64,000 bases of DNA from a virus. The translations under genes were made by a program, and so were the position numbers. Below are positions 15,356-56,689 of the stretch, piece by piece; positions within the stretch are counted from its first letter, which is position 1; the number at the start of each line of letters is the position of its first letter. The notes below the pieces were generated by a model, which was not told the origin of the DNA, made no database searches, and saw nothing but the letters and a program-made list of their open reading frames with translations. The stretch is taken from the IMG/VR virus record IMGVR_UViG_3300014720_000003, positions 62,001-126,000 of that record. The stretch is one strand, 5' to 3'.

Positions 15356-16110
15356 ACAAACATATATTTAGTATCATCATTTAGTAGATTGGTATTTTCT
15401 ATTTTCCTAACATATCGATATACTGATGCACTATATACTATACATGTCTTATTTTTATCTGAAACCACCATTATCTGTCCCATATCTTTATGTACAATCT
15501 CATTTGTTTTAATAATTGGATTGAGATTACTCACAGGACCACTTATCTGAACAATAAACCTAGATTTAATATTTGTGTATAGAATACTATTAATAATTGA
15601 CTCATCAGTAACATCTTCATCTAAAATACTCTGTATGCGCCAACCACAAGATATATTACATTCATCTATCAAACTATTCATCATACCAAAGGTATAAATT
15701 AATGATTGTGATTTACGACGTAAGAAAATGATTTTTTTTGGAGGACCGACCGTATTATCCATAAGGTTGGAGCATAAAGTTTTTAAGTCGGATGGGTTCT
15801 CAAATCCATGTAAACTAATAATCACAGTATAATGTAATCTATTTGTCTCTGTAAATTTAGTGATTTTATCATCCAAGCACGCATCCGCTAGACCAAATTG
15901 TTCAAACCATTTGTTTTCCCTATATCCAATACATTTTTTATTATTGATAATATAAAATTCTTTCTCATTATCATATGCTTCGATAATTTCAACATTATTC
16001 TGTCGTAATTTATTAATAAAATCTAATGAGCAGTTTGTTTGTGTATTTTCATCATATTTGGCGAATACACAATTTTTGCATGAAGTATGAATAGCGCTGA
16101 TGGTTGTCAT
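15352..16110 (-). CDS. Protein with N-terminal Cys motif and GT-A-like region
   Basis: The 252-residue protein starts with C-K-N-C-V-F-A near residues 11-17, then TQTNC near 24-28 and a further Cys at about 60, suggesting a small metal-binding domain. From about residue 93 it reads like the first half of a family-2 glycosyltransferase (YTVIISLHGFENPSDL, then PPKKIIFLRR). A catalytic D-x-D is not obvious, although L-D-E-D occurs near residue 158. Overlaps both neighbours by 4 bases, in a run of sugar-transfer genes. Confidence 0.4.
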   Translation of the reverse strand: MTTISAIHTSCKNCVFAKYDENTQTNCSLDFINKLRQNNVEIIEAYDNEKEFYIINNKKCIGYRENKWFEQFGLADACLDDKITKFTETNRLHYTVIISLHGFENPSDLKTLCSNLMDNTVGPPKKIIFLRRKSQSLIYTFGMMNSLIDECNISCGWRIQSILDEDVTDESIINSILYTNIKSRFIVQISGPVSNLNPIIKTNEIVHKDMGQIMVVSDKNKTCIVYSASVYRYVRKIENTNLLNDDTKYMFV

Positions 16111-17726
16111 GGAATAAAATCCTCTTTGGCTATAGAATTTTTGTTTGTTCTCATCTGTTCACAAACAATTTTATTATTTAGGAATGATTCTAGAATAGCA
16201 ATAACATCTTGATGACCAAAGGTTTTAAAATGACCATTCTGAACTATTACACTATTAATAAAATCCTTGATTAACATTTGTATTGGTGCTGTATTAATTA
16301 AGTATGGTTCATTAATTACATGAGAACACATGAATTCAACAAATTCTTTTTTTGATATTGTGGATGGAATCGATACATTCGTATGGTTTGTTGTATATTT
16401 TTCTGATGTATCCCAATTTGTTTTCTGATTATTTTTTATATGATCAAAGGCAGCATTCCATGTTTGATAAACATTATCCCAAGAATATTTTTCAATACAT
16501 TTCTCTCTGATATGATCACTATTAGGAATAGTAATAGTCTTATTAAAGAATTGAGTTAGTAAATTGATAGTATAGTTGTTATCTGGAAGTGCTCTTAAAG
16601 CATTACTTTCCATTTCCCTAAATAGGGAACACGGTATTTTATACCCTAATAAATTATCAGCAATTTCGGACATAGCACTATAATCCACAACCATAATAGG
16701 AATGCCACAAGATGCAGCCTCTATTTGTGGAATACCAAATCCTTCACATATAGCATATTGTAGATAAACATCGAACAGATTATATATCTCACTCAATTGT
16801 GAAGTAGACACCGAATTAGTTGTACTAGTAAATCGTGCATTATAAGATCCACAACTTGTACACTTTGTCGTAATCCCATTAAATTTAGAAGGGAAAAAAC
16901 TATTACATGATTTACACAAATAGGTAAAATAAACCCTATCAGCAACACCATATTCTAAAAGAAGCGAGGGAATATCCCACCCAGCCTCTTCTGGATAACT
17001 AGTATGAAGATATAATACTGTATTTGTTGAATTACTAGGATTCTTAATAAATTCATTTAATACTAATATAAGATCAGCTAGTAATTTACGCTTTTGATTA
17101 CGCATTACTGTGCCAATCACATTAATTTTGTTTGTACCTAAATATTTGGTTTTGTGTTCATCTTTATTATATATTGGTTTAAATATATTGTAATCTACTC
17201 CAGCATTAGCGATTTGTGGGAATAGATTAATAGTATCTCCACACTCTTGTATTAGGGTGTCTTTGGCCCATTGAGTATATGGAACTACTAAATCACTATT
17301 TTTAAATGTAATTTTCCAATCTATGCGCTGAGGAGCAGAATCTACTGTTGGCATTATTACCCAATTATAAAATCTACGATATGGGCTGGTTTCTTGATAC
17401 GCGCTCATCCAATAGTCTCTAACATCAAAAACTATATCAGGATTAAAGTCTGCTAAAACCCTATTAAATCTCCAAAGACCAAACTGATTAAGGTTGTTAC
17501 TTTTATAAGTGTTGTATCTTTCGTCATTAACAGGCACAGCATTAGCATAGAACCGCCAGGGAATATCTTTAATTCTGGTATTTAAATGATCAACAAAACA
17601 ACCTAATTCTGCTACTTCATACTCTTCGTTTTTATGTAGTCGTGAGAGAATTTCCTTACCATAAATACCATAACCGGTATCTAAAAAACTAGCATCGTTA
17701 CATAGTAAAATTTTTGTTTTTTTCAT
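16107..17726 (-). CDS. Glycosyltransferase, GT4-like, with zinc-ribbon insertion
   Basis: This 539-residue protein has the GT-B layout: an N-terminal domain (ILLCNDASFLDTGYGIYGKEI, acceptor loop with Gly-Tyr-Gly) and a C-terminal donor domain with CEGFGIPQIEAASCGIPIMV near residues 330-350, the E-x-F-G-x-x-x-x-E-A motif of family 4. Between them, residues about 270-293 contain C-K-S-C ... C-T-S-C, a zinc ribbon not usual in this family. About 150 further residues follow the catalytic domain. A 12-bp hairpin lies upstream, after ssb. Confidence 0.75.
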   Translation of the reverse strand: MKKTKILLCNDASFLDTGYGIYGKEILSRLHKNEEYEVAELGCFVDHLNTRIKDIPWRFYANAVPVNDERYNTYKSNNLNQFGLWRFNRVLADFNPDIVFDVRDYWMSAYQETSPYRRFYNWVIMPTVDSAPQRIDWKITFKNSDLVVPYTQWAKDTLIQECGDTINLFPQIANAGVDYNIFKPIYNKDEHKTKYLGTNKINVIGTVMRNQKRKLLADLILVLNEFIKNPSNSTNTVLYLHTSYPEEAGWDIPSLLLEYGVADRVYFTYLCKSCNSFFPSKFNGITTKCTSCGSYNARFTSTTNSVSTSQLSEIYNLFDVYLQYAICEGFGIPQIEAASCGIPIMVVDYSAMSEIADNLLGYKIPCSLFREMESNALRALPDNNYTINLLTQFFNKTITIPNSDHIREKCIEKYSWDNVYQTWNAAFDHIKNNQKTNWDTSEKYTTNHTNVSIPSTISKKEFVEFMCSHVINEPYLINTAPIQMLIKDFINSVIVQNGHFKTFGHQDVIAILESFLNNKIVCEQMRTNKNSIAKEDFIP

Positions 17727-18198: not shown

Positions 18199-18226
18199 AT
18201 TGTAAGCTCGACGGGACACAAGTCAA
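18199..18226 (-). promoter_or_regulatory. Sigma-70-type promoter of ssb
   Basis: Minus strand: TTGACT (18226-18221), 16-base spacer, TACAAT (18204-18199), followed about 43 bases later by AGGAG and the ssb start. The -35 box overlaps the stop codon of the upstream polymerase gene. Only one and one mismatches to consensus. Confidence 0.6.
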
Positions 18227-19848
18227 GCCCTTGGAATATAAGCCTTTTCCACAATTAGGCCATCACCAGTTTTTGATTTATTTCCCTTTAATATGATAAC
18301 ATTACCAACGAATAATATATTCTTATATTCTTTATACTTTTCTGGAAACATTATAACCGAATCCAAAGAGCCTGTGCTATCAATTATTGTAAGAAATGCC
18401 ATCTCTGATCCTGGATTTTTTCCTGATTTTGTTTTTGTTACACTAATAAAATCTATTTCTCCACCGATAATTAAATTATCTTTCATAGTAGTTGTTTTAA
18501 ACTCTTTACATGTAATATTTGTCATACTAATATCATACATGTCTATTTTTGAGCAAGAGATTGAGTATCCTAGTAAGGAATCTTCACAGTCAGATATCCA
18601 TTCAGGACTATCTTGTAAAGAATACGGGGGATTTTTTAATGAATTGATCATATCTTGTATAGCATTTTTTCTATTTTTATTAATTTTAGACTGACCAAGA
18701 ACTAATGATAATAGTTCACTGAGCTTGTGTTTATCTTTAAATTCTTTCACATAACTACTTAAAATTTCTAACTCCTTTTTTGTCAAACCACTCACGGTGT
18801 TGTATTCGAACAACATTTTGTTTCTGGATATTTTAAAAAATCCAAGAGATCCACTTTGAATTAATGCTTTCGATGCTGTACTATTAATATTAATTAAGAC
18901 AAATAATAAACACTCAAACCAACACATAGAGTTAAAATCTATTTGTGTAGATAATTTAGTAATCTTATCAAACACAGAAGATCCAACACCCTTGATATCA
19001 GTTAAACCAAAATAAATTTTATTATCATGCAGAATGAAAAATTCGTTTTTTAATCTCAAATCCGGATTATGTACAGAAATATCCATCTCGCTGGCATTAA
19101 GTATTAACTCCTTAATTTCTGCTTGAGGGTCTATTTTATCTTTAGCAAATCGCAGATACGAAGCAAAGAATATTTTCGGAAAGTGTGCTTTAGCATATGC
19201 CGATAAATAAGCATTAACAGCATAACTTACAGCATGACTTTTATTAAAAGAATATCTCTGACTTTTTTCGATCCATCCAAAAATTTGTTCAGCCTGTTCT
19301 TGAGTAACTAGGCTCATAGCACTAGCGCCATCCATAAATTTGGATTTAACTTTGGCCATTTCTTCTGGTTTCTTTTTACCAATAGCTTTGCGCAACATAT
19401 CTGCTTCTTGAAGATTGAAACCGGCGACTACCTTAACAATCTCCATTGCTTGTTCTTGATAAACCATCTCTCCATATGTATTCTCTAATACTTCTTTCAA
19501 GCAAGGATGAAAATAATCTACTGATTCTAGTCCATTTTTTTTATCTATATAATGATGACTAACACTTTTACCATCTCTAATAGCTTCCAAACAACCAGGA
19601 CGCATAATGCTTATGAGCGCTGATAGTTGTTCTATATTAGATGGTTTCAATTTCTTAGCCATAGATCTACCAAGGCGACTCTCTAATTGAAAGCACCCTT
19701 TTGTATTTCCATCTGATATAAGATCCCAGGTTCTTTGACAGTCTAGGGTTATATGATCTATAGAAGGATCAAAAGTGATCTGTGTGGAACCATTGTTTTC
19801 TACAATAGGAAACTTACACCCACACGAATATGAAAAATGTTTAGACAT
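18223..19848 (-). CDS. dnaE: DNA polymerase III alpha subunit, C-terminal part (fingers to OB fold)
   Basis: This 541-residue protein is the second half of a bacterial C-family polymerase. Residues about 49-56 read GCFQLES, then ALISIMRPGCLEAIR, TYGEMVYQEQAM and LRKAIGKKKPEEMAK (about 150-162), the fingers domain that binds incoming dNTP. A helix-hairpin-helix-like region (LTDIKGVGSSV) follows, and an OB fold closes the protein (GGEIDFISVTKTKSG, then AFLTIIDSTGSLDSVIM). PHP and palm domains with the catalytic Asp residues are missing here and are encoded by the separate gene at 20712-22586. The first 25 residues carry C-G-C. It overlaps the exonuclease gene by 8 bases. Both halves must assemble for activity. 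Confidence 0.88.
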   Translation of the reverse strand: MSKHFSYSCGCKFPIVENNGSTQITFDPSIDHITLDCQRTWDLISDGNTKGCFQLESRLGRSMAKKLKPSNIEQLSALISIMRPGCLEAIRDGKSVSHHYIDKKNGLESVDYFHPCLKEVLENTYGEMVYQEQAMEIVKVVAGFNLQEADMLRKAIGKKKPEEMAKVKSKFMDGASAMSLVTQEQAEQIFGWIEKSQRYSFNKSHAVSYAVNAYLSAYAKAHFPKIFFASYLRFAKDKIDPQAEIKELILNASEMDISVHNPDLRLKNEFFILHDNKIYFGLTDIKGVGSSVFDKITKLSTQIDFNSMCWFECLLFVLININSTASKALIQSGSLGFFKISRNKMLFEYNTVSGLTKKELEILSSYVKEFKDKHKLSELLSLVLGQSKINKNRKNAIQDMINSLKNPPYSLQDSPEWISDCEDSLLGYSISCSKIDMYDISMTNITCKEFKTTTMKDNLIIGGEIDFISVTKTKSGKNPGSEMAFLTIIDSTGSLDSVIMFPEKYKEYKNILFVGNVIILKGNKSKTGDGLIVEKAYIPRA

Positions 19849-20539
19849 TACTGCTTGAGAATGCGTTTCTAAATTTAACTTTCTGTCCTAGATTTCTATG
19901 TAACTTAAGAAAACGCACAATAATTTGAGCGGTATCCTTTACATCTTGCAAAGCATCATGAGCATTATCCTTGGATAACCCAAAATAATCTCTCACATTA
20001 TCTAGTGTGTAGTTTTTTAAATCGTTATTGTTTTCAAACCAATAAAACATCAAATTCATACCATCAACAACATCTCGTGGATAGAATAAATTGGTCCTAT
20101 GTTCTTTATTTAGGTTACCATATTTACGGCTTAATCTATCAATAATATGTAAATCAAACCGATTAATATTATATCCAGCAGCTATTGGTGCTGTAAATTG
20201 ACTTTTTTTGGATGATCTAGTATGATATTTTTCTAAATAATTTACAAATATCTTCCAAGAGTGATCCTGTTTAGGATATTTATACCATGACTTTAGGACC
20301 TCTTCTTTGGAACACCCCTTAACCTTTGAATGAAAGTCCAGAATATCAGTTTCATAAGTGTAGTTCTCTGTATTTTCTAGAACCTCTGGCTTAAAGTGGA
20401 TATTTAATTCTGAATCATCTATTACTTCTAAACTAATAGGATCTATAATAATAGCAGCCAGTTGCACGGGACTGCATACCGATGGATCAGAGCCATCTGT
20501 TTCAAAATCAAAAACACAAATTTTGTTATAGTTAATCAT
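19841..20539 (-). CDS. 3'-5' proofreading exonuclease, DnaQ-like (DEDDh)
   Basis: The 232-residue protein has the DEDDh exonuclease residues: VFDFETDG near 9-16 (Asp11, Glu13), a middle YNINRFDLHIIDRL with Asp near 127, and HDALQDVKDT (His194, Asp199). It removes mismatched 3' ends during replication. It sits between the two halves of the polymerase alpha gene, overlapping the downstream half by 8 bases and the 59-aa gene upstream by ATGA, so it is made with them and is probably the polymerase's epsilon equivalent. Confidence 0.88.
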   Translation of the reverse strand: MINYNKICVFDFETDGSDPSVCSPVQLAAIIIDPISLEVIDDSELNIHFKPEVLENTENYTYETDILDFHSKVKGCSKEEVLKSWYKYPKQDHSWKIFVNYLEKYHTRSSKKSQFTAPIAAGYNINRFDLHIIDRLSRKYGNLNKEHRTNLFYPRDVVDGMNLMFYWFENNNDLKNYTLDNVRDYFGLSKDNAHDALQDVKDTAQIIVRFLKLHRNLGQKVKFRNAFSSSNV

Positions 20540-20715
20540 TCAGAGACCACTACCTCTTGAGTTGGTTGTACAAAAATTCTATTCTGCACATTCTGTACAG
20601 CTATTGCATTTATAGATTTGCAACAACTAACCTTTGCAGTATCGACCTTTTTATATTGTGTTTCATTTAGAGTAAATACCGAACCAACGGATACTTCTTG
20701 AAACTGCTTATTCAT
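20536..20715 (-). CDS. 59-aa protein between the polymerase halves, unknown
   Basis: A short frame starting at an ATG (20715) that overlaps the stop of the DnaE N-terminal gene by ATGA and ending in a TGA that overlaps the exonuclease start by ATGA. The sequence has the look of a small beta-barrel phage protein: VSVGSVFTLNETQYKKV, then VSCCKSINAIAV with a Cys pair, and FVQPTQEVVV. The 74-aa protein at 58553-58777 has a similar opening (ISPGDCFVFENKLFIL). Function unknown; position suggests a replisome link. Confidence 0.65.
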   Translation of the reverse strand: MNKQFQEVSVGSVFTLNETQYKKVDTAKVSCCKSINAIAVQNVQNRIFVQPTQEVVVSE

Positions 20716-22586
20716 ATATTAACTCCTTTACTAAGTAAATTTTGAATAGTCATAATCTTATCTAACATTGCAACACCGAGAATATCGAATTTAATTATAC
20801 CAATATTTTCTAGATCTTGCATTTCCATACCAGCAATCATTTGTTCGTTCTTGGTGTCATAAATCATTGGACATATTTGATGCAAAGGCTCCGAGCTAAT
20901 AGCGATACCAGCGGCGTGTTTTGATTGATTCGACTTTGTTCCTTCTAATCTTATAGCCTGTTCGAATCTTTTGGCCAGTGGTCCCTGAAGCTCGCCATTA
21001 TCGTCGATGTAACACCATTCTCTAAGTTTATCTCCATTATTTTCCAATGCCCATCTAATAATTGATGCCTCACCTGTCTCTTCTTTCATTTCCTGAAGAT
21101 CATCAGCTATTTTAGCTTCGTCCGGAATATTTTTAGTTATACGATTCATTTCTTCGAAACCAATATTACCATATACTCTTAAAACATCCTTAAGAGCACC
21201 CCTACCCTTTATAGTATTGAAGGTAATCATTTGTGCAACTTTATCCACACCATATTTATTTTTTATGTATTCTATGATATATTCTCTTTTATCTATAGGC
21301 ACATCCACATCAATATCTGGCATACTTATTCTATCCTTCGTATTCCTACCAGAATTATAAAATCTATCAAAAAATAAGTTATATTTGATAGGATCTATAT
21401 TTGTAATACCAATAAGATAAGATACTAAACAACCAGCCGCAGAACCCCTACCAGGACCGGGTAACCAACTATTGTCCTTCACATATTTTACAATATCTTG
21501 AACTATTAAAAAATAGCTACTGAGATCAGCACCCTGTAAAACATCTAACTCATATTTTATGCGATCCACATATTGCTGCTGATGTTCTTTTGGTATATTA
21601 TTGGCAATTTTATCTTTCCAGCCCTTTCTACAAAGCTCTCTTAAATATTCAGCATCATCATATCCTGTTGGACACTGAAATGGTGGCAACCTAGGTTTGC
21701 TCAAAATATCATAATCCTCTATTAAATTTGCTACATAATTTGTATTACTGATTTCCTCTAGTGTATGCAGATCGTTAATTTCTTCTTGAGATGGAATATG
21801 GTAATTTTCAGAAATAAAGAAACACCCCAGTGGAACCTGTTCGTCGTTGCTGAGTTTGCGACTAATTTCTGGAAATGTTGTTTTTAAATTATTGCATAAT
21901 AATATACGTTGATCAACAGCGTCTTCTTTTTTACAGTAGTGAGCATCCGGGGTGCAAATAACCTTAGTGTCGGTTTCTTTACCTATGGTCCTAATAGCAT
22001 CAGTTAATAGAATTTGTACTGGAAGATTATCTTTATCAATTAATTGTGCTTCTAAAAACACATGATTATTGAATATCTTTTTAAGATATCTCACATGTTC
22101 TATTCCTAGAGATAACCAATTGTCTTTTAGATTATAGTTATCCAAAATTAGATCGGCTAAAGTTGAGCCCAAATGCCCTGTGATCGCTACTAAATGACCA
22201 TTGTTGAGTTTGGCTAAAGTTTGCAGATCTAATCTGGGTTTATGATAATAATATTCTGGTTTATTAGATTCTGATACTATTCTAATTAGGTCTTTCCATC
22301 CGTTATAGTTACGAGCAAGCACAATAAAATGAGATAGAGATCTATTTTCTTTATCCTTAAATGATGGGTCTTGATCACATATGTATAGTTCACACCCCAA
22401 AATGGGCTTAATACCAGCTGCCTTCATGGCAGTGTAAAACTTTATTGCACCAGCAATATTACCATGATCAGTAAGAGCACAAGCAGATGCTCCAATTTCT
22501 TTACATCTTTCTGCCATTGATTTTGGCTGAGATAAACCATCCAATAAACTATACATGGAATGGCAATGTAATGGTATATAGTTCAT
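20712..22586 (-). CDS. dnaE: DNA polymerase III alpha subunit, N-terminal part (PHP and palm)
   Basis: This 624-residue protein is the first half of a C-family polymerase. A PHP domain starts it (PLHCHSMYSLLDG; TDHGNIAGAIKF). The palm has GPGRGSAAGC near residue 375-385 and the metal-binding MPDIDVD near 420-427, equivalent to E. coli PDFDVD. The third catalytic Asp lies at IIKFDILGV near residue 597, 25 residues before the end. The protein then stops, exactly where full-length alpha subunits (about 1160 residues) continue into the fingers. No intein fragment is present at the end. The fingers are encoded by 18223-19848. Together they give 1165 residues, a normal full length. Confidence 0.9.
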   Translation of the reverse strand: MNYIPLHCHSMYSLLDGLSQPKSMAERCKEIGASACALTDHGNIAGAIKFYTAMKAAGIKPILGCELYICDQDPSFKDKENRSLSHFIVLARNYNGWKDLIRIVSESNKPEYYYHKPRLDLQTLAKLNNGHLVAITGHLGSTLADLILDNYNLKDNWLSLGIEHVRYLKKIFNNHVFLEAQLIDKDNLPVQILLTDAIRTIGKETDTKVICTPDAHYCKKEDAVDQRILLCNNLKTTFPEISRKLSNDEQVPLGCFFISENYHIPSQEEINDLHTLEEISNTNYVANLIEDYDILSKPRLPPFQCPTGYDDAEYLRELCRKGWKDKIANNIPKEHQQQYVDRIKYELDVLQGADLSSYFLIVQDIVKYVKDNSWLPGPGRGSAAGCLVSYLIGITNIDPIKYNLFFDRFYNSGRNTKDRISMPDIDVDVPIDKREYIIEYIKNKYGVDKVAQMITFNTIKGRGALKDVLRVYGNIGFEEMNRITKNIPDEAKIADDLQEMKEETGEASIIRWALENNGDKLREWCYIDDNGELQGPLAKRFEQAIRLEGTKSNQSKHAAGIAISSEPLHQICPMIYDTKNEQMIAGMEMQDLENIGIIKFDILGVAMLDKIMTIQNLLSKGVNI

Positions 22587-32378: not shown

Positions 32379-33090
32379 CTTCTAAAAACTCTAATCTTAG
32401 TAGAATCTTAGCAATAATTGGATTTCTAACAATATCCCCATATTCTAGTCTGGAAAGTCCTATGCTGTCCACACCATCGAGGGCTTTAATTAAATCCAAA
32501 AATCCGCCACGGAAATTCCTTGGCAAATCAGACTGACTAATATCTCCTGTTAATACCATTTTACTGTTGTTTCCTATGCGTGTCAACAACATTTTTAATT
32601 GATCATACGAAGCATTCTGGCACTCATCTGCTACTATAAAGCTATTGTGAAAGTTTCGTCCTCTCATTAATCCCAAGGGGACTATCTCAATTTTATTATT
32701 AAGCTTTAATGCCGCATAATGACTCACAGGAATAAAATGCAATATTTCATCTAGTATTGGCAATAGGTAAGGATGTAATTTTTCCTCTGCTGTACCAGGA
32801 AGATATCCTATTTTCTCTCCGCTCTCTACTACTGGTCTGGTTATAATAATTTTTTTTATTTTATCATCTAATAGATATTCCAGAGCCATACCTATAGCAA
32901 TATGTGTTTTACCACTTCCAGCCACGCCCTGACAAAACGTGATAGTATTTTCTGCTACTGTTCTTATATAATCTTTTTGATTATCTGATCGTGGTCTTAA
33001 TCTATTACGATATAGTGGACCACTCGATTCAATATCGTTTGTAGCATCTATAACCTTAGACTTTCTCTTATCTTTGTTGTTCTTTCTCAA
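32359..33090 (-). CDS. phoH: PhoH-like ATPase
   Basis: 243 residues. Walker A GVAGSGKT at 55-62, IITRPVVESGEKIGYLPG, Walker B IVADECQNA near 150 and a VLTGDISQSDLPR motif are the PhoH hallmarks (RNA/DNA helicase-related ATPase). PhoH is common in large phages; its exact role is unknown, perhaps RNA handling. 24 bases separate it from the reductase gene upstream. Confidence 0.88.
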   Translation of the reverse strand: MRKNNKDKRKSKVIDATNDIESSGPLYRNRLRPRSDNQKDYIRTVAENTITFCQGVAGSGKTHIAIGMALEYLLDDKIKKIIITRPVVESGEKIGYLPGTAEEKLHPYLLPILDEILHFIPVSHYAALKLNNKIEIVPLGLMRGRNFHNSFIVADECQNASYDQLKMLLTRIGNNSKMVLTGDISQSDLPRNFRGGFLDLIKALDGVDSIGLSRLEYGDIVRNPIIAKILLRLEFLEDETKKQ

Positions 33091-33114
33091 TGGGATACCT
33101 CGCTGAAAATGGGA

Positions 33115-36100
33115 TTAAATTAAGCAAGCGCCGCCGGCACAACTAATCTCTTCTATTCCAGCAGTATTATCCTCTGTTTCTAATAGTTGTGTATAATCAA
33201 CCTTTTTATAGCTGTCATATAAATCACAATATATTTTCCAGTTATAAACATCCTTCATACAGTAAGTCAATCTCCTTACATCCCCATTAAAATATTTACC
33301 AGCAAAATTCTTCATCTTTGTGGTGAATAATAGCTTTTCCTTAGTGTCGTTTTCTTTAGCTTGATTCATATTCACATAATCACAAGCAGCCCAAAGATTA
33401 TTATCAAAAGCATTTAGTCCAAGTTCTATTAATCCAGAGCACCATAACGCAGCATCTCCGTATTCTTTTACTATTTCTCTGCTTGTGTAAACAGTGGTGA
33501 ACGGTGCTTGAGGGTAATCTTTATCTCCGCTTTGTGGAATTAAACTAATACCAGCAAAATATTTACGATTATCATAAATATATTTTGTTACCTGTTCCCA
33601 TTCATCTGGTTTTACTGTAACAGTATTACTAACATTATGACTAAGATAATCTTGAGTACATAATGATTTATTCTTACCAGAGTGTACCCAATTCTTTTGA
33701 GTATCCTTTACGATAGAGAGCATATCCACAGCGGGAAGTTGATTCTTGGTTTTGGCTCCGTCGGGAACTTCAATTGGAAATTTAACTACCTCATCAGTAT
33801 TATTTGCTGACCAGCGAGATTTTTCGCACGCTTGTGGGTTATAATTCTTAAAGTGCTGGTATGGTGCTTCTAAAACATTAGCCTGCACATGGCGTATATA
33901 GCGTTTAGCGTGATGAGGATGGATGCCAGAACTAGTCCCGAGCATACTGCTGCTTGTGCCCTCTGGTTTTAAACACGTTACTCTAGCAGCTTGATTAATA
34001 CCGAGTTTTTTAGCAAATTCTTTATTGGTTTCTATGGTCATTTTAGCACCAGCCTTTAGAACCTTTTCTGATAAAACTAGATCATATTTTTCCATAGTGC
34101 CAGTTAACGAAACGCCCAATAAAGATTCTCTTTCAAAGATGCGGCAACTAATATCGCCTAGATAATCTAACTTTGTAAAGCCTGCTTGTAATGTTCCTAT
34201 AATCGCAGCAGCTTTACATCTTTCATAAAAATCAGATTCATCCTCTATAGATGAACAATTAATAGTAGATAGATTACACCCTTGCCATCCACTCTTACCG
34301 CTCTCCTCATCAACAGGCCACATACCCACTTCCACACACCTTCGTGATGTTATGCCATTAACTATCATGGTGCGTCTACTATTTTCTGTTAAACAATAAA
34401 CGTCTTGCTTTCCGATGTAAGTTATTTTTTTTACAAATGAACTAAATCTATTCGTTAATCTAAATGTTTGCCTATCTTTAAGAACCTCCTTAATTCTATT
34501 TATGTCTTTTATATGCAAACTAGCAAAACCTATCAAATTATAACAATTATTTTGTCCACCAATAATAAGCCTATAACTAGTTTGTGTAGAATAATATTTA
34601 TTGTTTCTGTCGCCATCTGGCAAAAGCGCTTTACCTGCTTTTCTAGATATATTTATTCTGGCAAATACCCCAAGCTCCTGTAAAATTAATTGTATATCCA
34701 TCAATGCGCTTATGTTAACAGACGATAATCTCATACTTAGAGATTTTGATTTTTCATTATATTCAGAATGCCCATCGGAATAAAGCATTCCAGAAACAAA
34801 TCCAGCTTTAAAGTTTTTAGATGTTTTATGTATAAAACTAATATCGTCTTTGATGGACGGAATTCCTTTTGTGTTTAAATATTTATTTAGAGCGGTACTT
34901 TCTAGGGACCATTTTGGCTTTGATCCATAAATTTTATCTTCTAAACAAGAAAATTTTGGTTCAAGATTTTGATTATATGTCAATAAGTCTTTATCTAATT
35001 GGCTAATGAAGTATTTTACATAGGTTTCGGTTTCTGATATTTGAGACTCTAGTTCCGCCGCCGTACCCCAAAAATTTATTCTGCAAGAACTATATTTAGA
35101 AATAAAACAACCGTCTCCATGAATAAGACCAACTAAATAACCCAATTTAAAATCGTCGCTATTTTTATCAGAAGTATATGGTTCAGAGATTGGGATTAAG
35201 ATTTCATCTTCACTTGTTAGGTCTTTTAATTCCACCATTCCGTGTCTTGTTGCAAAATGATGGTTGCTTGTAGCTTTTACTTTTCTTCCACAAGTCAGTT
35301 CTAACTCATAAACGTCTCTATCAATGCCGGTTTTTCTGGCGTTAGAAGCTGTATTAATAATATTAGCGTTTGGAATATCCATATTAACAGCCCAGTGTTC
35401 CTGACCATCTTGCATATATCCAAATACACGACTGTCTTGCTCTATATCAAATGATTGTGTGTCTAAAAGATCTTTAAATTCAGTCCAGCCATGAGTTGTC
35501 AAAACTTTTGTGTCAATTGTTACGCACGGATTGAAAGTCATCTCTGTAGAATCGCTCCAAATAAATCCAGGTTCACCAAACTCTTTAACACTTTCCATTA
35601 AGGTTTGAAATTCTTCGTATGTGGTAGAATCTTTTAATAAAAGAGCAGAGTTGTTGCTTCGTGCTCTTTGGGGATTTTCCAGATACCAGTTACCAGTTTT
35701 AGCCTTGGCCATTTCTTCATCATCATGACTAAACAACGCTAAACTAGCAGATCGTCTAACCCCACCACTCAACACAGCATCACTACTGTGCATCACTATA
35801 TCATAAGCATCAATTGGTCGTAGTTTCTTTTGACCATTGGATACACAACGATCTAACAATACTCTTATTTTTTCTAATCCTTTAGCAAGAGGTTCGAATC
35901 CTGGGGCTTTTCCAACACCAGAACTAAGATTTGATCCTTGTGGACGAATATTACTATAATCAAATAGTATATGACAATTTTTGTATTGTTTAAATTCTTC
36001 TACTGGTTTACTAAAATAACTACTTAATAAGACTCCTAGAGCATCCGCCCACCCTTCTATGCTATCTTCTATAACATAAACAGTGCCTTTATCCTCTGGA

Positions 36101-36495
36101 GGATTGTGTTCCAGAGTTGGTAATTTGGAAACGTGGTGTTTTTGCACACTAAATCCTGTGCCACTACCACACAATAATAACCAAAAGCATTCTTGAAAAA
36201 ATCGTAATCTATCACAATAGGAACTTGTGCAATTATAGATTTTGGCGTGACGTTTTAGAATTGGTTCGCCACCAAATTGCAATCCTCTTTGTGAGCCAAG
36301 AACTTTTTTCTTATACATCATATCATATGCCCAATCAATATCTGTTGATATTCCTTTGTCGGCATACATAGAGTGCATCATATTTCGCACACGATCAACA
36401 GCTTCTTTCCAAGTTTCTCTGCGATTTTTATCTTCTAACCAACGAGCATATTTACTAACAAATGTATAATTCTGAAGTTCTTGAAGTGCTGACAT
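33115..36495 (-). CDS. nrdJ: Ribonucleotide reductase, class II (B12-dependent), with intein
   Basis: 1126 residues as translated; about 730 without the intein, the size of monomeric ribonucleoside-triphosphate reductase. Matches include LCGSGTGFSV near residue 110, FGEPGFIWSDS before the intein, NPC (thiyl-radical cysteine) at the junction, then GWQGCNLSTIN, a LKPEGTSSSMLGTSSGIHPHHA segment and the redox pair at the end (CAGGACLI, Cys1119 and Cys1124). It reduces ribonucleotides using adenosylcobalamin without oxygen. An intein of 396 residues interrupts it exactly before the radical cysteine. AGGAGA precedes the start. A small membrane protein gene and dCMP deaminase lie upstream. Confidence 0.92.
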   Translation of the reverse strand: MSALQELQNYTFVSKYARWLEDKNRRETWKEAVDRVRNMMHSMYADKGISTDIDWAYDMMYKKKVLGSQRGLQFGGEPILKRHAKIYNCTSSYCDRLRFFQECFWLLLCGSGTGFSVQKHHVSKLPTLEHNPPEDKGTVYVIEDSIEGWADALGVLLSSYFSKPVEEFKQYKNCHILFDYSNIRPQGSNLSSGVGKAPGFEPLAKGLEKIRVLLDRCVSNGQKKLRPIDAYDIVMHSSDAVLSGGVRRSASLALFSHDDEEMAKAKTGNWYLENPQRARSNNSALLLKDSTTYEEFQTLMESVKEFGEPGFIWSDSTEMTFNPCVTIDTKVLTTHGWTEFKDLLDTQSFDIEQDSRVFGYMQDGQEHWAVNMDIPNANIINTASNARKTGIDRDVYELELTCGRKVKATSNHHFATRHGMVELKDLTSEDEILIPISEPYTSDKNSDDFKLGYLVGLIHGDGCFISKYSSCRINFWGTAAELESQISETETYVKYFISQLDKDLLTYNQNLEPKFSCLEDKIYGSKPKWSLESTALNKYLNTKGIPSIKDDISFIHKTSKNFKAGFVSGMLYSDGHSEYNEKSKSLSMRLSSVNISALMDIQLILQELGVFARINISRKAGKALLPDGDRNNKYYSTQTSYRLIIGGQNNCYNLIGFASLHIKDINRIKEVLKDRQTFRLTNRFSSFVKKITYIGKQDVYCLTENSRRTMIVNGITSRRCVEVGMWPVDEESGKSGWQGCNLSTINCSSIEDESDFYERCKAAAIIGTLQAGFTKLDYLGDISCRIFERESLLGVSLTGTMEKYDLVLSEKVLKAGAKMTIETNKEFAKKLGINQAARVTCLKPEGTSSSMLGTSSGIHPHHAKRYIRHVQANVLEAPYQHFKNYNPQACEKSRWSANNTDEVVKFPIEVPDGAKTKNQLPAVDMLSIVKDTQKNWVHSGKNKSLCTQDYLSHNVSNTVTVKPDEWEQVTKYIYDNRKYFAGISLIPQSGDKDYPQAPFTTVYTSREIVKEYGDAALWCSGLIELGLNAFDNNLWAACDYVNMNQAKENDTKEKLLFTTKMKNFAGKYFNGDVRRLTYCMKDVYNWKIYCDLYDSYKKVDYTQLLETEDNTAGIEEISCAGGACLI
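34339..35526 (-). mobile_element. Intein with LAGLIDADG homing endonuclease inside nrdJ
   Basis: Residues 324-719 of the reductase reading frame. Block A begins CVTIDTKVLTTHGWTEF; block B is VKATSNHHFATRHG; the endonuclease has two LAGLIDADG-like helices (LGYLVGLIHGDGCF and FVSGMLYSDGHSE); block F is VYCLTENSRRTMIVNG. The C-terminal block reads ITSRR before the extein Cys, where His-Asn is expected. The insertion point is Asn-Pro/Cys. Missing His and terminal Asn question normal splicing. Confidence 0.85.
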
Positions 36496-36496
36496 C

Positions 36497-36637
36497 TTAT
36501 CTCCTATTGAGCATTATTAACGAAAATATCCCCAACACTACAACACTTTCAAATGATTGTTGTTGCATATGGGGGTTCTGAGTTATGAGACTATAAACAT
36601 AAATACCTAATGAAACATAAAACGATATTAATATCAT
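36497..36637 (-). CDS. 46-aa membrane microprotein
   Basis: A short frame starting at ATG 36637, overlapping the dCMP deaminase stop as ATGA, and ending in a TAA just before the reductase start. It fills what would otherwise be a 138-base gap. Two hydrophobic stretches (MILISFYVSLGIYVYSLI and VVVLGIFSLIML) are separated by a polar Gln-rich loop. Its 3' end carries the AGGAGA site of the reductase gene. Small double-spanning membrane protein of unknown role. Confidence 0.55.
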   Translation of the reverse strand: MILISFYVSLGIYVYSLITQNPHMQQQSFESVVVLGIFSLIMLNRR

Positions 36638-37104
36638 AATACACCGCACAGTTGTTTCAGCCACGAAAGATCTGGTTCAACATATTCTATTTCTATACCA
36701 CTCATACTAACAAAAGTATCAAATATTTTTTGAGCTTTTTCATCAAAAAGGTGTGTGCCGTGATTGTTTGTCATAACTACTTTTCTAACTCCTTCTTGCC
36801 ATAGGGCCATAATGCAATCGTTACACGATTGACCAGTAACATATGCTATCCCATTTTCTGGTCGTATAGTACAATTAGATAGAGCATTACGTTCAGCGTG
36901 AATCATCCACGGATATTTGTCTGGTCTACTGTTTGGTAATAGGGTATCATCCAAACCGCGAGGAAATCCGTTGTATCCTAATCCTAAAATCCTATTATTA
37001 GAATCTGTGATTACACAACCGTGTTGTGTTTGAACATCATGGCTACGTTGAGAAACAACTTTAGCCAATCCTAAAAAATAATCTGTCCAGATGGGTCTGC
37101 TCAT
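36634..37104 (-). CDS. dCMP deaminase-like protein
   Basis: 156 residues. WTDYFLGLAKVVSQRS opens it, then H-A-E-R-N-A-L (His69, Glu71) and the second zinc pair SCNDC (Cys94, Cys97), as in dCMP/ComE-type deaminases. Converts dCMP to dUMP for dTTP synthesis. No ribosome binding site is visible before the ATG; an extended -10 promoter ends only about 7 bases upstream, so the mRNA may start at or near the ATG. Its stop overlaps the 46-aa gene by ATGA. Confidence 0.85.
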   Translation of the reverse strand: MSRPIWTDYFLGLAKVVSQRSHDVQTQHGCVITDSNNRILGLGYNGFPRGLDDTLLPNSRPDKYPWMIHAERNALSNCTIRPENGIAYVTGQSCNDCIMALWQEGVRKVVMTNNHGTHLFDEKAQKIFDTFVSMSGIEIEYVEPDLSWLKQLCGVL

Positions 37105-38075: not shown

Positions 38076-38214
38076 TTCGCTTTCTCCATCGTGGTCTTGG
38101 TTTGGGAGTATCATCACCCTTTGGACTTGGACTCCACAATTTAATAATCTTGTATAGAAAATCCAAGAACATTTGAATAGCACGACCTAATGATATTCTA
38201 TCAATGAGTTTCAT
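38068..38214 (-). CDS. 48-aa basic small protein
   Basis: A short frame starting at ATG 38214 that overlaps the papain-like peptidase stop (ATGA) and ending in TAA at 38068 that overlaps the next start. An amphipathic or hydrophobic helix (RAIQMFLDFLYKIIKLW) is followed by a Pro/Lys/Arg-rich tail. Overlaps on both sides support translation. Could be a membrane-active peptide; function unknown. Confidence 0.5.
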   Translation of the reverse strand: MKLIDRISLGRAIQMFLDFLYKIIKLWSPSPKGDDTPKPRPRWRKRNE

Positions 38215-39137
38215 AAGTATTTCTCGAAATCATAGGATGGAAGTTTTTGAACAGGAAAACCATCAAAATTACTAAAAGCATAACTACCATTTTGAGCCAA
38301 CATTTGACCAGCAACATCGGATCGAATTAAAAATGAGCCGTCTGGAATTGGACCCCATTCTGGATGACCACCATCATTCCACTTACCCCAACTATTTTGC
38401 ACAAGAAACAATGGTTCGCTTCCAGTATCATCACATGCTATCCAAGCCATACAATGAGCCCAACTACCACTAACATTAGTTACACCGTTCTTATCTCGTT
38501 TGTTACTAAAGCCAAAACTAGAGCATACGGCTAATCCATAACCATTAGCCAGAGCGTCTCGTGCTTCATCTACTGTGCGTACCAAACTTACTGTTTTTAT
38601 TTGATGATCATTGGCCAGATCTATTACTTTATCTGGTAATCCTCGACCACCCCAGTTTGTGCCAATAGTACTATTATATTTGGTAAAATCGGCTATTCCC
38701 TTGTAATCTTTACGAACCAGAATGCCACCATTTTTACTCACAAATTCGGCCGCTCTAGCACAACTCATTCCCTGACCACTATGGCCTCTAGCACCATAAA
38801 TAGCTTCTGTTGCGCCTCGTGCTACCCAACCCTCTCTTTGTTTATGAATATCAATCTCTACTGCTCGACTAACATCACACGCATTTCGTGTTCCGTGTGA
38901 AACACAATCTCCAACTGTTTGTCTTTCGTTATAGGGACTCTTATCAAACTTTAACACACTTTTGTACGGAGTACTTAGTTTGCCCTTACCACTATTCTTA
39001 ATCTTTCTTGCTCCATCAGAGAAATAACCATATTTTGAATGTTCTAATAGTTGTTCATAAATATGTTGTTCAAATAAACAACCAGAGAATCCTTTTTTAT
39101 ATAATTGATAAAGATCATTAGGACTAAATTTTGGCAT
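38211..39137 (-). CDS. Papain-like cysteine peptidase (C1-type)
   Basis: 308 residues. The catalytic Cys78 lies in RQTVGDCVSHGTRNA with Gln73 for the oxyanion hole; the His is in GSWAHCMAWI near 227 and the Asn in VQNSWGKWNDGG near 247, giving the Cys-His-Asn triad of papain-type enzymes. No signal peptide. It lies in a cluster of membrane proteins; candidate for envelope degradation at lysis or virion processing. The N-terminal 60 residues could be a propeptide-like region. Confidence 0.75.
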   Translation of the reverse strand: MPKFSPNDLYQLYKKGFSGCLFEQHIYEQLLEHSKYGYFSDGARKIKNSGKGKLSTPYKSVLKFDKSPYNERQTVGDCVSHGTRNACDVSRAVEIDIHKQREGWVARGATEAIYGARGHSGQGMSCARAAEFVSKNGGILVRKDYKGIADFTKYNSTIGTNWGGRGLPDKVIDLANDHQIKTVSLVRTVDEARDALANGYGLAVCSSFGFSNKRDKNGVTNVSGSWAHCMAWIACDDTGSEPLFLVQNSWGKWNDGGHPEWGPIPDGSFLIRSDVAGQMLAQNGSYAFSNFDGFPVQKLPSYDFEKYL

Positions 39138-51362: not shown

Positions 51363-52031
51363 TTACCATGCTTTGCAAGACCAGTATCTTGCTTTCCATT
51401 TTGGACCAGGATTAGCACAATTATGTCTTGCCCTAAATGAACGTCTTCTTTCTGGAATATTTTTTTTGATTTTCATATTCGGATCACCAAAATTTACTTT
51501 AACAATATTTCCTTTTTCATTTTTTACATAAACGCTAAATTTCTTAGGGCCGTCTGGAGTTCTAAATGGTTTGTTCAGGGTTACTTTTCTACCCTGATAT
51601 TCAGAGGCCCTACCTTGATAAACTAAATATCTTTCATTTTTCTTATAATTACCTAGTCTGTCAAAATAGAACAATTCAAAAGTTTTTGGATCCATGTAAG
51701 TGAATTTGGCATCGCTATCTAGATCTGATAAATCTATTATCTCTACTTCTTCTTCGGTATCTATGTACTGATTGCTTTCTGGAATAATAATATTTGATGC
51801 AGTTACCTCTTCAACAGAGCCACAATCGTCACAATCTTCGAAAGCAATAGAAAAACCTAAAATATCTAACACATGATCCAGTAAAGAATTTTTAGACTTA
51901 CGGGTTTGTCCAATACAGATTGCAACTCTTTGCTTTGAATCTGGATATTCTTTTTTCATAGTTTCGTTTCCCATGCAACGAGAAACAAATTTTTTCTTAT
52001 CTTCATTTTTTTCTGGATTAGGAATTGGCAT
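51363..52031 (-). CDS. Fusion of two small phage domains (virion or maturation protein)
   Basis: 222 residues. The N-terminus (MPIPNPEKNEDKKKFVSRC, then SKQRVAICIGQT) matches a short motif found at the start of many phage head-region proteins. The C-terminus (PERRRSFRARHNCANPGPKWKARYWSC) matches another conserved phage module. A long acidic linker (residues 70-105) joins them. The exact role is unclear, perhaps a head-associated or packaging protein. Adjacent to the ferritin-like gene. Confidence 0.5.
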   Translation of the reverse strand: MPIPNPEKNEDKKKFVSRCMGNETMKKEYPDSKQRVAICIGQTRKSKNSLLDHVLDILGFSIAFEDCDDCGSVEEVTASNIIIPESNQYIDTEEEVEIIDLSDLDSDAKFTYMDPKTFELFYFDRLGNYKKNERYLVYQGRASEYQGRKVTLNKPFRTPDGPKKFSVYVKNEKGNIVKVNFGDPNMKIKKNIPERRRSFRARHNCANPGPKWKARYWSCKAW

Positions 52032-53103
52032 GATAGCTATTATTTAGTAATAAGGTTTCGTTAATAATATTAGCAGTATTAGTCCAGCTATATTTCTGTG
52101 CTGTAGCTAATCCTCCTGGATTTGATCTGATGTTATTCTGATACACATATTTCATATAATGCACAGTTTGTTCTAGTTGATCGTCTCCCAATTTGGCCCA
52201 ATTACCTTGACCAAAAAACCATTTTCCATCATTAGCTGGTTCTGTTTCATCAACAGAAATTAAAAAAGCATTATTATCATTACAATATTCTGTATGAGCA
52301 GAATAGAAGGTCGTGATGATTGGTTTATCTAAAGCCATACTTTCCAGAATTTCATTGTTCCAGCCCTCTGCTCTAGATAGGAAAACACCACAATCGCACC
52401 TATATATAAATTCAGCCAAATGATATTGTGTGGGTAGTTTACTATATACTTTAATTTTATCTTTTAGTTTAGATTGTTCTACCAAATTTAGCCACTGATT
52501 AGTTTCTTCATCGTTCAAAAATGGGTTGTGAGGCAATAACCATAATTCTACATCGTCCTGTTCATTAAACGATAAATCAAAAGCCTTTATTAGGAGATCG
52601 TGACCTTTTCTTAGTTCCCATTTACCAATATGAAAAAATATATACTTATTATTATTGAATCTAATTTTTGGTGGACTATTAAAGATTGTCAAATCAACCG
52701 CTAAAGGAGACACATAAATCGGAGTGTTTATACCGTTGTTCTCTAGTATTGTTTTACCCCATGTCGATGCTGTAAAAATAAAATCAGGATATTTTAAATG
52801 ATGTTTTTCTCTATCTGTAAAAGTATCCAGTTCGAAAAATGGAAACGCATAATAATGCCCCTTACCTATTCTGGAAGCAAGATCATGTTGGTGCCATATT
52901 TTTAAACACGGGGCATCATAATCGAATTCGCTACTATTTTTCAGATAATTTTGTACAATAGACTTATCTGTTTCTGAATTAACTTCGACATTTGTTCCTA
53001 TGGGGAATAATGCTATATTATTATTGAGATTCTTCATAATGTTTAGTGAAGTAATCCCATACCCAGTACTATTAATTGGACAATTTAAATTAAGATTTTT
53101 CAT
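52018..53103 (-). CDS. Glycosyltransferase, GT4-like
   Basis: About 361 residues. N-terminal part with NSTGYGITSLNIMKNL (acceptor loop), IFHIGKWELRKGHDLLIKAF at the donor domain start, and EGWNNEILESMALDKPIITT, the E-x-x-x-x-E-x-x-A motif. The longer frame from 53154 would overlap the GMP reductase by 65 bases; the ATG at 53103 fits the family start. It lies between GMP reductase and a virion-like gene; target unknown. Confidence 0.75.
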   Translation of the reverse strand: MKNLNLNCPINSTGYGITSLNIMKNLNNNIALFPIGTNVEVNSETDKSIVQNYLKNSSEFDYDAPCLKIWHQHDLASRIGKGHYYAFPFFELDTFTDREKHHLKYPDFIFTASTWGKTILENNGINTPIYVSPLAVDLTIFNSPPKIRFNNNKYIFFHIGKWELRKGHDLLIKAFDLSFNEQDDVELWLLPHNPFLNDEETNQWLNLVEQSKLKDKIKVYSKLPTQYHLAEFIYRCDCGVFLSRAEGWNNEILESMALDKPIITTFYSAHTEYCNDNNAFLISVDETEPANDGKWFFGQGNWAKLGDDQLEQTVHYMKYVYQNNIRSNPGGLATAQKYSWTNTANIINETLLLNNSYHANS

Positions 53104-54193
53104 ATATTTTATTGTGAGTGTTGTTAACTTGAATGAATGTTGTTTTTTTACCAAAGTCTTTAATTTTATTTGCTCCTATGTATGTACAAGCGCTACGAAT
53201 GCCACCATAAATATCTTGTATAATTTCTGATACTAATCCTTTGTATGGTACAATAACAGATTTACCTTCTGCTGTTCTATAATTTGCAACTCCATCATGG
53301 TGTTTATCCATAGCGTCTTTACTACTCATTCCATAGTATTTTAAGGATATCTTTCGCTTTATATTATTATCTTGAGGATCTATTGGTTGCCAAGTTCCTA
53401 GACTAGTTTTATATTCATAAAACCATTCTCCTTCACATTCGTCGCATCCTGCAAACATACTTCCTAACATTACAAAATCACTATTCGCTCCAAACGCTTT
53501 ACAAACATCTCCAACGGTTTTGCATCCTCCATCGCTGCAAATGTGTCCACCAAGACCATGAGCAGCGTCCGTACATTCCATCACAGCGCTCAGTTGAGGA
53601 TATCCCACGCCCGTTTTTAAACGAGTGGTGCATACGCTACCTGACCCTATACCAACCTTGACTATATCGGCCTTGCCGTGAATAATAAGTTCTTCCACCA
53701 TTTCAGGCGTTACCACATTTCCTGCCATTATAATAATTTCTGGAAATAGTTTGCGAATATGTGCGGCTGTTTTCACAAATTGTTCGGTATATCCATTTGC
53801 AACATCCAAACACACATTGGGAATATAGCCTCTGCTAAGTTCTACGGTTTTAAAAACACGCTCTAGTTTTTCTATATCTTTTTTGGATGTGCCTGTTGAA
53901 TACCAAATATAATCAGTTCGTTTAAGAAATAAATTAACTAATACGTCTTCATCATAGTGTTTGTGTAAGCACGTTATCGCTTTATGAACCAATAATGATT
54001 GCGCCATATTAATGGTTCCAACAGTATCCATGTTGGCCGCAATGATTGGAACACAACTTAATTCTCGGGGACTATGAACAAATCTGAATGAACGATGTAA
54101 ATCAACTTCTGATCGACTCTTTAATACTGAGCGCTTTGGTCGAATCAAAACATCATCAAAATCTAACTTAATTTCATTAATTATTTTTTGCAT
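53090..54193 (-). CDS. guaC: GMP reductase
   Basis: 367 residues, close to the bacterial GuaC length (about 347). LDFDDVLIRPKRS opens it; VKVGIGSGSVCTTRLKTGVG holds the catalytic Cys near 186; then YPQLSAVMECTDAAHGLGGH and a C-terminal RTAEGKSVIVPYKG with GGIRSACTYIGA. It turns GMP into IMP with NADPH. Its presence with a deoxyribosyltransferase-like protein suggests purine pool control or base modification. Overlaps the upstream gene by 17 bases. Confidence 0.88.
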   Translation of the reverse strand: MQKIINEIKLDFDDVLIRPKRSVLKSRSEVDLHRSFRFVHSPRELSCVPIIAANMDTVGTINMAQSLLVHKAITCLHKHYDEDVLVNLFLKRTDYIWYSTGTSKKDIEKLERVFKTVELSRGYIPNVCLDVANGYTEQFVKTAAHIRKLFPEIIIMAGNVVTPEMVEELIIHGKADIVKVGIGSGSVCTTRLKTGVGYPQLSAVMECTDAAHGLGGHICSDGGCKTVGDVCKAFGANSDFVMLGSMFAGCDECEGEWFYEYKTSLGTWQPIDPQDNNIKRKISLKYYGMSSKDAMDKHHDGVANYRTAEGKSVIVPYKGLVSEIIQDIYGGIRSACTYIGANKIKDFGKKTTFIQVNNTHNKIYEKS

Positions 54194-55690: not shown

Positions 55691-56689
55691 TTATTTGTTA
55701 ACATTTATTTGTTCTTCTATCCAATGATATGTTTTTGTTAAACCATCAATTAAACTCAATGATGGTTTCCATCCTAATTTTTCTCCTATTAGATTATTAT
55801 CAGAATTTCTTCCATTTACCCCAACAGGTCCATCAATATTATTGATTAAGATATTTTTACCAGATATTGTAATAATCATTTTGGCAAAATCATTGATACT
55901 CACCATTTCTTCTGAACCAATATTAACTGGTCCAGTGAAGTTTGATCTCATTAATCTTATTGTTCCTTCCACACATTCATCAATATATAGAAAAGATCTA
56001 GTTTGTGTGCCACTACCCCATACCTCAATACTAGAATTATCTTGTGCTAGAATAACTTTTCTACAAAGTGCCGCCGGTGCTTTTTCTCTGCCTCCATCAT
56101 AAGTTCCTTCTGGTCCAAAAATATTATGATATCTTGCAATTCTAATTGTTAAATTATAGTTTCTAGCAAATGCCATAAACATTCTCTCGCTTAGTAGTTT
56201 TTCCCAGCCATACTCACTATCTGGTGCGGCAGGGTAGGCGCTATCTTCATTACATTTTGGATTATCTGGATCCTCTTGATTATATGCCGGGTATATACAA
56301 GCACTACTACTATAAAATAATCTTTTAACAGATTTCTTAACTGCTTCGTGCGCAACATTAAGATTGATTAGTGCGGAGTTGTGCATCACATTAGCATCGT
56401 TATCTCCTGTAAAAATATATCCTGCTCCACCCATATCAGCAGCTAATTGATATACTTCATCAAAACCATTATCTTTATTTTGTTCTGTGACTTGATTTGG
56501 AGCAAGCATAATACTAGCCACAACACTTGGATCTCTTAAATCTCCTAACACCATATCATCCGCTACAGAAGGCGAAAAATCTGGAAGTTTAATATCAACA
56601 GCCCTTACCCAAAAACCTTCATTTTTTAATCTTCTAACTAAATGAGATCCGATAAATCCACCACCACCCATAACTAATGCTGTTTTCAT
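55691..56689 (-). CDS. GDP-mannose 3,5-epimerase-like (SDR) protein
   Basis: 332 residues, extended SDR. GGGGFIGSHLVRRLK (NAD-binding Gly loop), VYQLAADMGGAGYI, SSSACIYP, and YGWEKL with Tyr-x-x-x-Lys near 171-175; RYHNIFGPEGTYDGGREKAP and ERSFLYIDECVEG-type ending (TRSFLYIDECVEG) are typical of GDP-mannose 3,5-epimerase. It would make GDP-L-galactose-type donors for the nearby transferases. A strong match in layout. Confidence 0.8.
   Translation of the reverse strand: MKTALVMGGGGFIGSHLVRRLKNEGFWVRAVDIKLPDFSPSVADDMVLGDLRDPSVVASIMLAPNQVTEQNKDNGFDEVYQLAADMGGAGYIFTGDNDANVMHNSALINLNVAHEAVKKSVKRLFYSSSACIYPAYNQEDPDNPKCNEDSAYPAAPDSEYGWEKLLSERMFMAFARNYNLTIRIARYHNIFGPEGTYDGGREKAPAALCRKVILAQDNSSIEVWGSGTQTRSFLYIDECVEGTIRLMRSNFTGPVNIGSEEMVSINDFAKMIITISGKNILINNIDGPVGVNGRNSDNNLIGEKLGWKPSLSLIDGLTKTYHWIEEQINVNK

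Follow-up and report, generated by a model that had tools for sequence, protein, structure and literature searches.

Phage class II ribonucleotide reductase inteins ending in Arg-Arg form a conserved, apparently unrecognised clade that may splice without Asn, Gln or Asp cyclisation

What happens at the C-terminal junction of an intein that stands directly before the catalytic cysteine of a reductase, and that ends in Arg-Arg? In the window, by which we mean the whole 64,000-nucleotide stretch analysed here (positions 62,001 to 126,000 of the viral record IMGVR_UViG_3300014720_000003), NrdJ is an open reading frame of 1126 aa (33115-36495, minus strand) that matches the RTPR model of class II ribonucleotide reductase (RNR). 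Its NPC-x-E motif is interrupted, between Pro and Cys, by a LAGLIDADG-type intein of 396 codons, or 396 aa (34339-35526, minus strand; ORF residues 324-719). The frame runs through both junctions as FNP/CVTIDTKVLTTHGW...DVYCLTENSRRTMIVNGITSRR/CVEVGMW, where slashes mark the junctions, with FNP/CVTIDTKVL upstream and VNGITSRR/CVEVGMW downstream, and the final two intein codons, CGA AGG (Arg-Arg), are followed by TGT (Cys+1). The usual C-terminal catalytic residues of inteins are His F:13, His G:6, and Asn G:7 (PMC4031507). The coordinates, the anatomy, and the insertion point had been given correctly in the original prediction. The features of the locus are as follows.

33115 to 34338, minus strand: C-extein of NrdJ, from the presumed thiyl-radical Cys (Cys+1) to the stop codon (RTPR model match)
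Within 33115 to 34338, minus strand: marks of the C-extein, namely CVE after the junction, the second redox Cys in GCNLSTIN, and the C-terminal CAGGAC
34336 to 34338, minus strand: TGT, Cys+1, residue 1 of the C-extein and the Cys of the NPC-x-E motif
34339 to 35526, minus strand: intein, Cys1 to Arg396 (Intein_splicing, LAGLIDADG_3, and TIGR01445 matches; predicted HINT/endonuclease fold)
34339 to 34344, minus strand: CGA AGG, Arg395 (G:6) and Arg396 (G:7), where His-Asn would be usual; the same in all 14 aligned members
34345 to 34398, minus strand: block F and the start of block G, with Cys378 (F:4), Glu381, Arg385 (F:13), VNGI, and the Thr-Ser that precedes Arg-Arg
34615 to 35145, minus strand: LAGLIDADG endonuclease region, limits approximate (Pfam LAGLIDADG_3)
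35248 to 35271, minus strand: block B core T-S-N-H-H-F-A-T, with T86 and H89 invariant in 14 members
35524 to 35526, minus strand: TGC, intein Cys1
35527 to 36495, minus strand: N-extein of NrdJ, ending in TFNP

The intein is matched by Pfam Intein_splicing (E 2.9e-11) and LAGLIDADG_3 (E 2.8e-12), and by TIGR01445 intein_Nterm (E 1.6e-7, above the model's cut-off); its two LAGLIDADG helices, GYLVGLIHGDG and AGFVSGMLYSDG, were recognized by eye in the translation. An AlphaFold2 model built on a 21-sequence alignment (an earlier one, from 7 sequences, had a poor C-terminus) has fairly good confidence (pLDDT 83.9, pTM 0.86) and predicts a HINT plus endonuclease fold; the PDB structures that match it best are inteins with an endonuclease, TliVMA among them. 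The C-terminal model TIGR01443 intein_Cterm matched controls ending in HN or GN and gave no match at E<=1 to the inteins of the window, L100, or L117; this absence is a weak sign alone, because two Gln-ending controls failed as well.

The original prediction had described one odd intein, possibly dead; the oddity stands, and it is the trait of a family. Once overlapping scans were combined, our searches returned 15 distinct Arg-Arg inteins in 18 records (at least 15 related copies), each inserted at the homologous Cys of a class II reductase and 28-89% identical to the window intein. The intein of an independent contig, L004, is 89% identical to that of the window and has the same CGA AGG ending, while 13 further distinct inteins terminate in Arg-Arg mostly through other Arg codons. 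Because the independent contig and the 15 distinct sequences agree, the ending is not a sequencing or assembly error. Specifically, a DNA pattern for NGI-x-x-x-Arg-Cys-x-Glu, in which only the last Arg was imposed (as AGR), recovered further reductase inteins, in which the free penultimate position was always Arg, together with two chance matches. A pattern that imposed neither Arg found Arg-Arg in 8/8 true inteins, plus one chance match, and a profile of the block B peptide found 13 relatives in viral contigs (including L122, a near copy of L120), with Arg-Arg in all those read. Every true match in the scans that left the tested residue free carried Arg-Arg, and no copy ending in His-Asn or Gln was found within the clade by the pattern and block B scans; the HN codons for which the original prediction had allowed at this junction thus find no counterpart inside the clade. 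A scan of a genome collection gave one match, on a 3.2-kb contig of an uncultured bacterium that is counted among the 18 records, and the annotated phage records examined contained no Arg-Arg intein, those at the same site ending in Asn or Gln. The pattern matches in L096, L099, L129, and L130 were rejected as chance matches.

The codon pairs used by the clade include CGA AGG, CGA AGA, AGA AGA, CGC AGG, CGA CGA, CGT AGA, AGA AGG, CGT AGG, and CGC AGA, which places five different Arg codons at positions 395 and 396. As the codons vary, the constraint acts on the protein and not on the DNA. These results describe a conserved, apparently unrecognised clade of phage inteins with Arg-Arg at the end, where Asn, Gln, or Asp would be expected.

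An alignment of 14 members, with a mean column identity of 50% and identities to the window intein of 28-89%, shows which other residues have been conserved. Cys1, D31, R33, W45, T86, H89, A92, T93, M97, C378 (F:4), E381, R395, R396, and Cys+1 are among the invariant residues. The positions of His F:13, His G:6, and Asn G:7 are occupied by Arg/Lys, Arg, and Arg, respectively, the residue at F:13 being Arg in 13 of the 14 members and Lys in one. The residues preceding Arg-Arg are variable (G:5 is Ser, Ala, Thr, or Val), and no column of Asn, Gln, or Asp is invariant in the last 75. A junction lying elsewhere with an Asn, the other ordinary outcome raised by the original prediction, was looked for in this alignment and no such residue is conserved; the sole candidate nearby, N390, is replaced by Glu in L117 and L118. 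In a wider alignment that includes inteins ending in Val-His-Asn (VHN), D31 is still invariant, while R33, W45, A92, and M97 are invariant in the Arg-Arg clade only.

The host genes, for their part, are intact. The N-x-C-x-E active-site motif and the redox cysteines are present in the window and in the other sequence-complete carriers; NPC-x-E and the second redox cysteine beyond the junction are retained in every carrier, as are the terminal cysteines wherever the C-terminus is complete. In the host exteins compared in pairs, dN is well below dS (which is near saturation), indicating purifying selection. A second reductase covering for a dead one was considered and rejected, a single RNR match being found in the 138-kb record (possibly incomplete). 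Of the two alternatives offered in the original prediction, the evidence favors a different C-terminal chemistry over a splicing-deficient intein, since a clade this divergent, with intact host enzymes, shows no variation in Arg-Arg.

We consider it fairly likely that the Arg-Arg inteins splice autonomously, with the C-terminal bond cut without cyclisation of Asn, Gln, or Asp. That they splice, like every detail of the third step, we infer from sequence. The first two steps are probably ordinary, as all of their residues are present: Cys1 would form a thioester with the N-extein, which would then be transferred to Cys+1, giving a branched intermediate. In the third, which must differ, the Arg396-Cys+1 amide would be cut in the HINT active site, after which an S-to-N acyl shift would ligate the exteins. 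Based on the conservation and on general chemistry, we hypothesize that the most likely form of this cleavage is one in which the side chain of Arg396 attacks the carbonyl of the same residue to give a six-membered arginine lactam, with Arg395 and Arg/Lys385, at the usual catalytic-histidine positions, as possible helpers. Arg396 is favored because the G:7 side chain acts in known inteins and is strictly Arg here; attack by Cys378 (F:4) or by activated water would come next in likelihood. Arginine cyclisation specifically is put forward tentatively, as a possibility that we would not bet on. The guanidine of arginine is normally protonated, which counts against the lactam, and we know of no precedent for arginine as a cyclising residue; that homing can maintain inteins counts against splicing itself. 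The open-licence papers searched contained no report of a terminal-Arg intein or of arginine lactam cleavage, although such reports may exist in subscription journals, and synthetic branched-ester cleavage still depends on Asn (PMC10804359). The chances seem to us evenly balanced that Arg-terminated inteins constitute a new mechanistic class, in which cleavage is centered on arginine (lactam) or on Cys F:4 and the junction has no residue able to form an imide. If they splice, the clade breaks the terminal-residue rule and offers new chemistry for protein engineering; otherwise, these phages have an unexpected route to a working ribonucleotide reductase.

The rival account that survives best, although we judge it unlikely, is that the branched intermediate is cleaved after its dibasic Arg-Arg by a protease of the host or the phage, in which case the intein would provide the first two steps alone and the S-to-N shift would join the exteins. 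Arg-Arg right before the scissile bond, with variable residues preceding it, resembles a dibasic processing site, and the phage encodes trypsin-fold, ClpP-like, and papain-like proteins (the last by eye, with no Pfam match). However, in records that may be fragments, none of the three co-occurs consistently with Arg-Arg inteins. The papain-like protein is found in intein-free relatives and is absent from the 208-kb L097 and 103-kb L117 records (possibly fragments), the trypsin-fold protein is likewise found in intein-free relatives and is absent from the L097 record (possibly a fragment), and the ClpP-like protein is patchy and also occurs in L027, the nearest relative of the window. Proteolysis also leaves the conserved Arg/Lys at F:13, inside the intein, unexplained.

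These genes have some features of their own. The papain-like protein of the window (38211-39137, minus strand; 308 aa) shows GDC...NSWG by eye, the trypsin-fold protein (PF00089; 59022-59780, minus strand) has an apparent signal peptide and also occurs in the L117 record, and the ClpP-like protein (PF00574; 46832-47515, minus strand) is patchily distributed among related phages. In L027 (IMGVR_UViG_3300020183_000042), the papain-like gene carries a canonical in-frame intein before the Cys of GDC, ending SHN/C, and its frame has 686 aa versus 308 aa in the window, where that intein is missing. These two close relatives thus carry inteins in swapped places, in NrdJ in the window and in the papain-like gene in L027. 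Elsewhere in the window, a DNA polymerase III alpha-like sequence (18223-22586, minus strand) is apparently split into ORFs at 18223-19848 and 20712-22586 that flank an exonuclease-like ORF (19841-20539); many ORFs from 10841 to 63303 resemble glycosyltransferase or sugar-nucleotide genes (e.g., 16107-17726, 52018-53154, and 55691-56689), all of these being recognized by eye. An IMP dehydrogenase/GMP reductase-like gene (PF00478) lies at 53090-54193.

Improbable, too, is that the intein only cleaves, and that the N-extein and the intein-C-extein (or C-extein) assemble unligated into a working reductase. All of the residues for N-terminal cleavage are present, and a precedent exists in the NrdA of Aeromonas phage Aeh1, which retains full activity although an inserted endonuclease gene splits it (PMC2988022). 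Yet an enzyme in two pieces does not explain why Arg-Arg and Cys+1 are so strictly conserved at the other junction, and, if the C-terminal bond were left uncut, a domain of 396 aa would remain on the radical Cys.

We give somewhat less credence to the possibility that the Arg-Arg inteins are deficient in splicing and are maintained by homing in reductase genes dispensable to the phages. The element does move: between the window and L004, dS is ~2 for the exteins versus ~0.63 for the inteins (intein dN, ~0.055), and the intein therefore moved horizontally after the host genes diverged. Further, the NrdJ site of L027 is intein-free, although its exteins are 98.8-99.3% identical to those of the window, and the intein of the L125/L115 pair is more similar than the C-extein, which shows that horizontal movement occurs there too. 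In the pairs L119/L120 and L120/L125, the exteins (70-75% identical) are more alike than the inteins (59-65%), which fits long co-existence and not recent arrival. Against persistence by homing, purifying selection spans the splicing regions as well as the endonuclease: dN/dS between the window and L004 inteins is ~0.1 in the splicing regions, and a similarly low ratio is seen in each of the two splicing parts, N-terminal and C-terminal, and in the endonuclease. Deep divergence has left Cys1, block B, and Cys+1 unchanged, the exteins retain their active-site cysteines and a low dN/dS, and the inteins of L118 and L115, in which the first LAGLIDADG Asp is Asn and which may thus not home, have nevertheless kept Arg-Arg. 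A misreading of Arg-Arg, through recoded codons, an RNA intron, or a splice junction elsewhere, was weighed since each version would make the finding ordinary and is very improbable, as it found no support: five Arg codons are in use and no tRNA gene was found in the window, 33000-37000 gave no intron family match and one chance miRNA match far below threshold, and the spacing of blocks A, B, F, and G fixes the junction, with no invariant Asn, Gln, or Asp nearby.

The Arg-Arg inteins share several features with class 1 inteins, namely a predicted HINT fold, Cys1 (14 members), the T-x-x-H of block B, Cys+1 (in all), a LAGLIDADG endonuclease, and an in-frame insertion ahead of a catalytic residue, and, from its sequence, the window intein is expected to follow class 1 through the first two steps. 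The terminal residue, however, is Arg in all 15, outside the set with which reviews describe class 1 inteins as always ending, Asn, Gln, or Asp (PMC7664689), or Asn, Gln, Asp, or Glu (PMC4031507), and for this reason we do not file the window intein as class 1 so defined.

The same NrdJ Cys holds at least three intein groups in related phages (Arg-Arg, VHN, and VAN) and is empty in many others, with L005-L021, L019, L022, L025, and L026 providing the basis for repeated invasion of this single site. The VHN inteins (L005-L021, L025) share the insertion site and near-identical NrdJ host genes, but they have the canonical His-Asn end and, in a maximum-likelihood tree, a separate branch (100/100), the Arg-Arg inteins lying on one side of a branch with support of 94/92. 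Among the reductase inteins of other phages at the homologous Cys, the ends are VHN or VAN (class II), GN (Thermus phages, the SPbeta group, and a Corynebacterium phage), SN and MN, or GQ/SQ (ICP1, Rheinheimera, Pectobacterium, Staphylococcus, and Bacteroides phages). The NrdJ proteins of L098/L119 and L097/L124 carry two inteins each, a canonical one (HN/C) at an earlier, N-terminal Cys and an Arg-Arg one at the radical Cys.

Class 3 inteins (WCT motif) have no N-terminal nucleophile and carry Trp B:12, Cys F:4, and Thr G:5. The Arg-Arg clade shares only Cys F:4 of this triad; it has Cys1, Phe or Ile at B:12, and a variable G:5, and class 3 ends are unlike Arg-Arg. Bacterial intein-like (BIL) domains share a HINT fold and an altered C-terminal chemistry. 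Type A domains end in His-Asn and are missing the usual +1 nucleophile, while those of type B have no similarity to block G; the Arg-Arg inteins, in contrast, combine their ending with Cys+1 and an endonuclease, at the catalytic Cys of an enzyme.

Finally, Gln-terminated inteins, of which that of the Chilo iridescent virus RNR is a tested example (PMC4031507), offer another comparison. Those of the phage reductases compared here (ICP1, Rheinheimera barba phages, Pectobacterium CB7, and Bacteroides SJC03) share with the Arg-Arg clade the homologous insertion Cys, a Cys at F:4, and the lack of the G:6 His, but they end in Gly-Gln or Ser-Gln and lie on a separate branch, whereas G:7 is Arg throughout the Arg-Arg clade. 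Because the Gln-ending forms are already without the G:6 His, and because Gln (CAR) becomes Arg (CGR) by one transition, descent of the Arg-Arg clade from a Gln-ending ancestor is plausible.
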